Shown here: one piece after another, positions 19,332 through 22,594 of the stretch | Position numbering within the stretch: position 1 is the stretch's first letter | How the letters are laid out: every line of letters begins with the position of its first letter | Assembly: GCA_903954045.1 (NCBI GenBank) | Contig: CAJBMJ010000547.1 | Coordinates: forward strand, 1-39,974 | Length of the DNA: 39,974 nucleotides | Direction of reading: 5' to 3' | DNA from: an uncultured beta proteobacterium | GTDB lineage: Bacteria; Pseudomonadota; Gammaproteobacteria; Burkholderiales; Burkholderiaceae_C | Position numbers and translations under genes: made by a program | The notes under the pieces: model-generated | The model's database searches: none | Told to the model about the DNA's origin: nothing | The model's input: the letters and a program-made list of their open reading frames with translations, nothing else

Positions 19332-19460
19332 ATGAAAACTCTGATCACGCTGCTACTTTCCACCTGCTTTGTACTCCTGTCCGGCTGCAACACAGTCAAG
19401 GGAGTGGGTCAGGACCTGCAAAAGGCGGGCGAAAAAATTGAGGGCGCAGCCAAAAAATGA
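19332..19460 (+). CDS. Entericidin A/B-like small lipoprotein (42 aa), overlapping the leuD start
   Basis: [42 protein letters not shown]: signal peptide, lipobox LLSGC and entericidin-like tail; too short for the ORF track; its stop overlaps the leuD ATG (ATGA). Confidence 0.88.
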
Positions 19461-20141: not shown

Positions 20142-21212
20142 ATGAAAATTGCAGTGCTGCCGGGTGACGGCATCGGAACCGAAATTGTGGCCGAGGCCGT
20201 CAAGGTCTTGAAGGTATTGGAACTTCCACTGGAGATGGAAAATGCTCTGGTAGGTGGTGCAGCCTATGAAGCGCACGGCCATCCATTGCCAGAGACAACG
20301 CTCAAGTTGGCCAAAGAGTCTGATGCCATTTTGTTTGGTGCCGTGGGAGACTGGAAATACGACAAGCTCGACCGCCCGTTACGCCCGGAGCAAGCCATTC
20401 TGGGCCTGCGCAAAAACTTGGGGCTCTTTGCCAACTTCCGCCCCGCCATTTGCTACGAACAACTAGTCGGAGCATCCAGCCTCAAGCCCGAACTGATTGC
20501 CGGATTGGACATCCTCATCATCCGTGAACTGACCGGCGACATCTACTTTGGCCAGCCGCGCGGCCGTCGCACGGCTGTTGATGGGCATTTCCCTGGTGCA
20601 GAAGAGGCCTTTGACACTATGCGCTACAGCAAGCCCGAGATCGAGCGCATTGCCCACGTCGCATTCCAGGCCGCACGCAAGCGAAATAAAAAGGTCACCA
20701 GCGTGGACAAGGCCAACGTGCTGGAAACTTTCCAGTTCTGGAAGGATGTGGTCACGGAGGTCCACGCACAGTACCCCGACGTTGAGTTGCAGCACATGTA
20801 CGTGGATAACGCTGCCATGCAACTGGTCAAGGCGCCCAAGGCCTTTGATGTAGTGGTCACCGGTAATATGTTTGGCGACATCCTGTCTGACGAAGCCTCT
20901 ATGCTCACCGGCTCCATTGGCATGCTCCCTTCAGCGAGTTTGAACTCCAGCAACCAGGGTTTGTACGAACCCAGTCATGGAAGTGCACCGGACATTGCAG
21001 GCAAAGGCATCGCCAATCCGCTGGCCACTATTTTGTCGGCCGCCATGATGCTGCGTTTCAGTTTGAACCAGGAAGCCGCTGCGCTGCGTATTGAAACGGC
21101 TGTTCAAAAAGTGCTGCAGCAAGGTTTGCGTACTGCGGACATCTTCAGCGAAGGCACCACCAAAGTCAGCACCGTTCAAATGGGTGACGCTGTCGTCAAG
21201 GCCCTGGGCTGA
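20142..21212 (+). CDS. leuB: 3-isopropylmalate dehydrogenase
   Basis: [27 protein letters not shown]...[14 protein letters not shown]...[27 protein letters not shown]. Confidence 0.97.
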
Positions 21213-21259
21213 TCATTCATTTGCGGCGGCCTGTAAGCCTTGTTTCAGGCCGCGTCTAC

Positions 21260-21265
21260 TACAAT
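21260..21265 (+). promoter_or_regulatory. Candidate -10 box (TACAAT) placing transcription start at or next to the leader ATG
   Basis: TACAAT 7 nt upstream of ATG 21273; no clear -35 or Shine-Dalgarno. Confidence 0.4.
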
Positions 21266-21272
21266 TAGCGCC

Positions 21273-21374
21273 ATGTTTCGCGCACGCACATTTCTGCTGA
21301 ACGTCGCCATGGTCGCCAAGACCGGCGGTGCCGTGCGCGCAAACACCTCCAAAACCACGACCATTAAAGGCTGA
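21273..21374 (+). CDS. Putative asd leader peptide (33 aa) with Thr/Lys/Ile/Asn-rich C-terminus
   Basis: MFRARTFLLNVAMVAKTGGAVRANTSKTTTIKG; below the ORF-track size cutoff; immediately followed by stem-loops before asd. Confidence 0.55.
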   Translation: MFRARTFLLNVAMVAKTGGAVRANTSKTTTIKG

Positions 21375-21379
21375 TCCAG

Positions 21380-21449
21380 CCCGGTTCGTCGTGCGCCCTC
21401 CCCGGCCAGACGAGCCGGGGGAACAGTCTGGTCACACTGTTTTTATTTT
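21380..21449 (+). promoter_or_regulatory. Putative attenuator-type RNA switch upstream of asd
   Basis: Competing helices: CCCGGTTCGTC(21380-21390)/GACGAGCCGGG(21409-21419); CCCCGGC(21400-21406)/GCCGGGG(21414-21420); GGCCAGAC(21404-21411)/GTCTGGTC(21426-21433); AACAGT(21422-21427)/ACTGTT(21436-21441) followed by TTTATTTT. Confidence 0.5.
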
Positions 21450-21463
21450 GAAAGGGCAATGAA

Positions 21464-22594
21464 ATGAGCAAGTTAGTAGGATTGGTGGGCTGGCGCGGCA
21501 TGGTCGGCTCTGTCTTGATGGACCGCATGCAGGCCGAAGGCGACTTTGGCCTGATCGAACCCCTGTTTTTCTCCACCTCCAATTCCGGAGGCAAAGCCCC
21601 CGCGCAGGCCAAAAACGAAACTACGCTGCAAGACGCCTTCGATATCGAAGCGCTCAAGCGTTGCGACATCATCATCAGCGCCCAGGGTGGCGACTACACC
21701 ACGGAGGTATTCCCCAAGCTGCGCGCTTCTGGCTGGAATGGCCACTGGATTGACGCGGCCTCCACCCTGCGGATGGAGAAAGATGCAGTCATTATTCTGG
21801 ACCCGGTCAACATGCCTGTGATCAAGGACGCCTTGGCAAAAAGTGGAAGAAACTGGGTAGGCGGAAACTGCACAGTCAGTTGCATGCTGATGGGCGTAGG
21901 TGCTCTGTACAAGGCCGGTTTGGTCGAATGGATGAGCACACAAACCTACCAGGCAGCCTCAGGCGGCGGTGCGCAGCACATGCGTGAATTGCTCACCCAA
22001 TATGGCACCCTCAATGCAGAAGTCAAAGCCTTGCTTGACGACCCGAAGAGCGCCATTCTCGAAATCGACCGCAAGGTGATCGCCAAGCAGCGCGCGCTGA
22101 CCAGCGCCGAGACTGCCAACTTCGGCGTTCCCTTGGGCGGCTCACTGATTCCCTGGATCGACAAAGACCTGGGCAACGGTCAGTCCAAGGAAGAGTGGAA
22201 AGGCATGGCAGAAACCAACAAAATTCTGGGTATGGGCGACGGATTTGGCTCAGCCGCTATTCCGGTGGACGGGTTCTGCGTGCGCGTAGGGGCCATGCGC
22301 TGTCACAGCCAGGCGCTGACCTTCAAGCTCAAAAAGGATGTTTCCTGTGCAGACATTGAAGCCATGATTGCCGCCGACAACCAGTGGGTCAAAGTGGTGC
22401 CCAATACCCGTGAAGCCACCATCAAAGACCTGACACCTGTGGCAGTCACTGGCACCATGACAATTCCAGTAGGCCGTATCCGCAAACTCGCCATGGGGCC
22501 TGAGTATGTGGGGGCGTTCACCATCGGCGACCAGTTGCTTTGGGGAGCGGCCGAGCCTTTGCGCCGTATGTTGCGCATCCTGCTGGAGGCCTGA
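21464..22594 (+). CDS. asd: Aspartate-semialdehyde dehydrogenase
   Basis: [43 protein letters not shown]...[16 protein letters not shown]. Confidence 0.97.

Follow-up and report, generated by a model that had tools for sequence, protein, structure and literature searches.

In the thrL, ilvL, and trpL attenuators of enterobacteria, a short reading frame rich in codons for the products of the pathway lies beside mutually exclusive RNA helices, and a stalled ribosome favors expression. In rph-pyrE attenuation of E. coli, the UTP supply is read via polymerase pausing, and it is a ribosome on the end of the upstream protein gene that controls the next gene. The LEU element, located before leuA in Actinobacteria, includes a leader peptide with product codons, and its run of Leu codons pairs with the Shine-Dalgarno (SD) sequence (PMC1262725). 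In mycobacteria, leaderless short ORFs that encode polycysteine attenuate downstream genes (Canestrari et al. 2020, as cited in PMC9031893).

The region upstream of asd described here resembles each of these systems in part. In the mechanism proposed below, it would share a product-rich frame, competing helices, and the direction of response to stalling with the enterobacterial leaders; like the LEU element, it would pair a structure with the SD of the gene that it regulates; like rph-pyrE, it would place a gene under the control of a ribosome at the end of the preceding protein gene; and, as in the mycobacterial ORFs, so far as the citing article outlines them, a leaderless start would be combined with a codon run that reports amino acid supply. 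It is quite likely that the region attenuates asd by way of the ribosome, reads Thr, Lys, Ile, and occasionally Met, receives ribosomes from two alternative sources, and switches between one helix, P1, and a pair of others, P2 and P4. No paper describing an attenuator of this type for asd, or one with its sensor in the C-terminal tail of an enzyme, was found in a literature that included few subscription journals.

Locus and Leader Frame

The window, which is the whole 39,974-nucleotide stretch of DNA analysed, contains leuB (20142–21212) followed by asd (21464–22594), the gene for aspartate-semialdehyde dehydrogenase and the regulated gene of the proposed system; these and the other features of the locus are on the forward strand. 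LeuB of the window ends ...GDAVVKALG and has no sensor tail. Between the two genes, the sequence-only reading of this DNA had placed a 33-codon ORF at 21273–21374, and this frame is confirmed; it encodes MFRARTFLLNVAMVAKTGGAVRANTSKTTTIKG and contains the sensor codons TCC AAA ACC ACG ACC ATT AAA GGC (S K T T T I K G) at 21348–21371. The hexamer TACAAT (21260–21265), 7 nt upstream of the leader ATG, could serve as the −10 box of a promoter devoted to the leader and is the sole match of this box-leader layout within the window. Three features were missing from that reading, namely this box, a pairing of 21395–21399 with 21453–21457 in the SD of asd, and a hairpin around the leader stop codon. 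An inverted repeat, GCGGCCTG...CAGGCCGC, is present at 21226–21253, 3′ of leuB and directly before the leader promoter, and may be the end of the leu transcript. Farther upstream, between leuC and leuD, a 42-residue lipoprotein-like ORF resembling entericidin occupies 19332–19460.

Codon Run and Putatively Sensed Amino Acids

The family to which the window belongs was represented by 121 genomes, each from a different genus, and asd was found in 119 of them; 110 regions upstream of asd, all from separate genera, were used for comparison. With a codon run defined as at least five Thr, Lys, Ile, or Met codons among the last ten of a frame ending before asd, a run is present in 95 of the 110 regions, in frames that end 72–166 nt upstream of asd, as compared with 1.6% of dinucleotide shuffles; at a stricter threshold of at least seven in ten, the counts are 78 of 110 and none, respectively. 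The element is absent from 15 of the 110 genera.

Positions −2 to −8 comprise 665 codons over the 95 genera, of which 625 specify Thr, Lys, Ile, or Met (327/357 where the run is part of LeuB and 298/308 where it ends a separate leader), and these residues interchange freely at individual sites; at position −6 in the LeuB-tail set, for example, there are 23 Thr and 22 Lys. Asn is found at none of the 665 positions, although Lys is common. Asd lies on the route to Thr, Lys, Ile, and Met but not on that to Asn. Because Asn and Lys codons differ only at the third base, the free exchange of the four residues and the absence of Asn argue for selection on the decoded amino acids. On this comparison, the sensed set would be Thr, Lys, and Ile plus a little Met. 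Asn, which had originally been counted with Thr, Lys, and Ile in the signal, is thereby ruled out as a sensed residue, whereas the other three are retained.

Stand-alone Leaders and LeuB Tails

The run occurs in two designs. In 44 genera, including that of the window, it ends a separate peptide of about 28–45 residues that lies at the same place before asd. Alignment of the upstream regions, which had been suggested as a check, shows that relatives keep the ORF and, at its C-terminal end, the Thr/Lys/Ile codons, with the N-terminal part of the leader free to vary. A TATAAT-like hexamer is located 6–12 nt (mostly 6–9 nt) before the leader start in 43 of the 44, as compared with a mean of 1.2 of 44 in shuffled sequences, and an SD-like motif precedes the leader in 1 of 44. 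The stand-alone leader is probably leaderless, with a transcript that starts at or a few nucleotides from the AUG, as judged solely from the position of the −10 box. Named members of this group are Acidovorax, Paracidovorax, Hydrogenophaga, Limnohabitans, Polaromonas, Hylemonella, and Brachymonas.

In 51 genera, among them Variovorax, Ramlibacter, Roseateles, Pelomonas, Rubrivivax, Ideonella, Caldimonas, Sphaerotilus, and Curvibacter, there is no separate peptide, and the run forms a C-terminal tail of LeuB (for example, ...MGDAVVAAITTTTKTIKS). The LeuB proteins of other families and the solved relative 4iwh end at about ...MGDAVVAAL and have no tail. The earlier proposal of translation-coupled attenuation of asd by several end products is supported with respect to the conserved codons and helices but not in its restriction to a leader peptide, since half of the genera use the end of LeuB. 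Neither design is present in Undibacterium, Aquabacterium (L193), or Rhodoferax antarcticus (L203); the last two and four other family members (L013, L047, L055, and L101) have asd without a leader or LeuB tail, the element having been lost or never gained.

In most genomes, asd follows leuB; in several, leuB is distant from asd and the stand-alone leader still adjoins asd. A concatenated tree indicates at least three changes between the designs, but the trees are poorly supported and this one includes two very long rows (L004 and L150) in which the LeuB part is probably misassigned, so that the order of the two designs is not read from them. An AlphaFold model of a tailed LeuB (mean pLDDT 67.5, below 50 for residues 360–363) is too poor for interpretation of the tail. 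It is reasonably probable that the C-terminal codons of LeuB are kept for the ribosome, as a report on Thr/Lys/Ile supply to asd, rather than for LeuB itself, and that they have been swapped with the leaderless peptide in evolution.

The element appears, from sequence searches, to occur in the Comamonadaceae and close relatives. Model R1 has a single strong copy in the genome of the window, before asd (next best E = 0.5), and across the order its clear matches are only in the same family, with weak ones in other families (best E = 5e-5). Two MAG records that are public under the titles Singulisphaera and Akkermansia muciniphila (L151 and L166) have asd 91–94% identical to that of the window and are probably mislabelled or contaminated bins. 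Among 39 regions from other families, a different Thr/Lys/Ile-rich frame precedes asd in three of family f14 (L143, L228, and L229) and one of family f32 (L137); these frames (such as ...TTTIITKTVMKG and ...STTIITKKTKTTVLV) lie 80–91 nt before asd and have another inverted-repeat RNA after the stop. They are possibly independent asd attenuators, and the attenuator idea may consequently have multiple origins or be older than the sequence of its RNA shows.

Conserved Helices after the Stop Codon

In both designs, the same segments follow the stop codon in the same order, arm 1 (GC[U]CCGGUUCGUC), a GCGCCC segment, a C-rich segment, and arm 3 (GACGAGCCGGG), and the distance from stop to arm 1 is nearly constant. 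In the window, arm 1 (21380–21390) pairs with arm 3 (21409–21419) to form the putative antisequestor helix P1 (21380–21419), and arm 3 is also used by its competitor, P2 (21400–21420), in which 21400–21406 pair with 21414–21420. Both pairings were known from the sequence-only reading and, checked base by base, consist of 11 bp with one G-U and of 7 bp, respectively. For P1, scored over 91 genera, 92% of the cells are paired and 12 show a double change, a number reached by 0 of 500 shuffles; for P2, 89% are paired and 7 show a double change, reached by 1 of 500. The covariation in P1 is modest because the helix is so strongly conserved. The two helices are mutually exclusive, since both require arm 3. 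A check of helix conservation had also been proposed, and in it the helices after the stop were found to be conserved with some compensatory changes; a third pairing put forward at the same time, 21404–21411 with 21426–21433, is not conserved across genera, and its own partner is no better than a foreign one.

P4 would be formed by the GCGCCC segment and the SD of asd. In the window, its 5′ side is the anti-SD segment GCCCT (21395–21399) and its 3′ side is 21453–21457, within the SD GAAAGGGC (21450–21457). Variants in relatives include UCGCCC/GGGCGA, ACGCCC/GGGCGU, GUGCGCCU/AGGCGCAU, UGCCCCU/AGGGGCA, and GCCCCA/UGGGGC. Own partners pair better than foreign partners when all loci are taken together (p = 6e-7) and when the LeuB-tail set is taken by itself (p = 2e-4), with no such advantage within the stand-alone set; it should be noted that these and the other p-values were computed on related sequences and are uncorrected for phylogeny. 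P4 helices of at least 6 bp are present in 20 of 49 LeuB-tail and 20 of 42 stand-alone loci, as compared with shuffled maxima of 12 and 15. P0 (21369–21381; 21369–21372 with 21378–21381), the small hairpin that brackets the leader stop, has covariants in relatives (AGGAC/GTCCT, GAGCG/CGCTC, and GGCGC/GCGCC), and its own partner is the better one in the LeuB-tail set (p = 1e-5) but not in the stand-alone set.

P3 (21422–21449) consists of the hairpin 21422–21427/21436–21441 and a T-rich stretch and, from its sequence, is a possible weak terminator. It coevolves in the LeuB-tail set. In loci of that set such as L018, L023, L039, L069, L094, and L095, P3 is strong and coevolving (for example, CUGGACCCC/GGGGUCCGG), encloses P2, and has no U-tract; the role of this P3 in the off state is not accounted for by SD pairing alone. 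A search of the 4227 families of Rfam release 15 gave no match at the gathering score and none at E ≤ 10, and the idea of a known Rfam element was dropped.

Predicted Folding and Proposed Mechanism

Each RNA was folded either free or with its first 15 nt, counted from the stop, masked in imitation of a ribosome at the stop; being equilibrium predictions on related sequences, the resulting numbers are guides and not proof. Among stand-alone loci, P1 is predicted in 37 of 42 free RNAs, and P4 rises from 5 of 42 free to 39 of 42 masked. P4 is predicted in 29 of 49 LeuB-tail loci already without masking and in 46 of 49 with it, and in 34–39% of shuffled masked folds. The full predicted switch, from P1 with an open SD when free to P2 plus P4 when masked, is obtained for 34 of 42 stand-alone loci (shuffles, 0.7%) and 17 of 49 LeuB-tail loci (shuffles, 1%). 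Accessibility of the SD is lower upon masking in 29 of 42 stand-alone loci (p = 3e-8); its mean in the LeuB-tail loci is not lowered by masking arm 1, and the mean for the window itself changes little, from 0.52 to 0.49. The 95-nt RNA that follows the stop in the window folds better than shuffles (z = −2.18).

Sequence comparison establishes the presence and placement of the codon run, the existence of two designs, and the conservation of the competing helices; ribosome stalling, the direction of the switch, and a translational output are inferred as follows. A ribosome would translate the Thr/Lys/Ile codon run, which ends a few nucleotides before arm 1. It can be proposed that a shortage of these aminoacyl-tRNAs stalls the ribosome within the run and leaves arm 1 free to pair with arm 3; with P1 formed, the anti-SD segment would be held in the P1 loop and the SD of asd would be open, so that asd is on. 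When aminoacyl-tRNAs are ample, a ribosome at the stop would cover arm 1, arm 3 would enter P2, and the anti-SD segment would pair with the SD in P4, turning asd off; this state may be aided in some genera by a terminator hairpin. In 44 genera, that of the window among them, the ribosome would come from the short ORF, which is probably leaderless and has a putative promoter of its own; in the 51 others, it would be the one finishing leuB, with the codon run as the tail.

Discussion

The same sensor could instead act through classic transcription attenuation, in which P3 and its U-rich tail terminate transcription before asd and P4 is incidental. The hairpin of the window is indeed followed by TTTTTATTTT, T-rich tracts precede asd in 27 of 42 stand-alone and 16 of 49 LeuB-tail loci (43 of 91 in total), and some LeuB-tail P3 helices coevolve. 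However, a canonical hairpin with a U-tract is missing in most loci, so that the U-tailed hairpin of the sequence-only reading, although present in the window, is not a universal part of the element; a terminator scan finds none within the window; and SD pairing is more widespread than terminators. In addition, the stand-alone P3 is compatible with both P1 and P2 and therefore would not be switched. Control by termination is for these reasons considered unlikely, and sequestration of the asd SD is a more likely output than a plain terminator alone. It is considerably less probable that there is no folding switch and that ribosomes finishing leuB or the leader simply reinitiate at asd, with the codon run only tuning the flow. 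Such translational coupling would suit the position of asd after leuB in most genomes and of the leader stop just 72–130 nt upstream of asd in nearly all loci, but that distance is long for reinitiation, and the conserved competition of P1 with P2 and the exact amino acid set would be left unexplained.

The C-terminal end of the peptide or LeuB tail is conserved at the residue level, as it would be if it had a protein function (a small protein, degron, or enzyme control) to which the RNA hairpins were unrelated; this is very improbable, because these residues are shared by a 33-residue peptide and a 360-residue enzyme and in either always abut the same RNA, the N termini are unrelated between genera, and the order of Thr, Lys, and Ile is free. 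Still less probable is a run that senses t6A37, a threonine-derived modification of tRNAs for codons that start with A. Such codons make up 627 of the 665 at −2 to −8, but others with the same first base are avoided (Asn AAY, 0, and AGN, 2 of 665), which fits the products of Asd rather than t6A. The least probable of all is a riboswitch or protein-binding RNA before asd with an incidental reading frame; the RNA is conserved and structured, but its helices are short and competing, the conservation upstream of it is in codon phase, and not even a marginal Rfam match was obtained.

As the branch-point enzyme of the aspartate family, Asd would gain a multi-product sensor in a group for which none was found described. 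If the ribosome-mediated attenuator is correct, the regulatory codons of an attenuator can sit on the end of an ordinary enzyme, outside the reach of searches for leader peptides, and either a leaderless peptide or the upstream gene can serve one and the same switch RNA. The presence of both designs in sister genera makes possible a direct test of what an attenuator requires.

In contrast to rph-pyrE, the signal would here be read from product codons that extend the C terminus of the upstream enzyme. In the LEU element, it is the run of Leu codons that does the pairing with the SD, and the sequence, gene, and phylum are unrelated. The mycobacterial polycysteine ORFs, as represented in the citing article, involve other amino acids, another gene, and another phylum, whereas the asd locus has a conserved switch RNA, and they include no counterpart of the LeuB-tail form. 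Unlike trpL with its superattenuation, the asd RNA would be on without any ribosome, a point that was counted against the proposed model. The thrL, ilvL, and trpL leaders differ further in that here asd is the regulated gene, Lys is sensed besides Thr and Ile, the output is probably SD sequestration, the stand-alone form is probably leaderless, the sensor is often the end of LeuB, and the RNA matches no Rfam family. By analogy, the proposed mode of working is nevertheless of the thrL and ilvL kind, combined with a probable leaderless start and a predicted SD pairing such as are found in other known systems.
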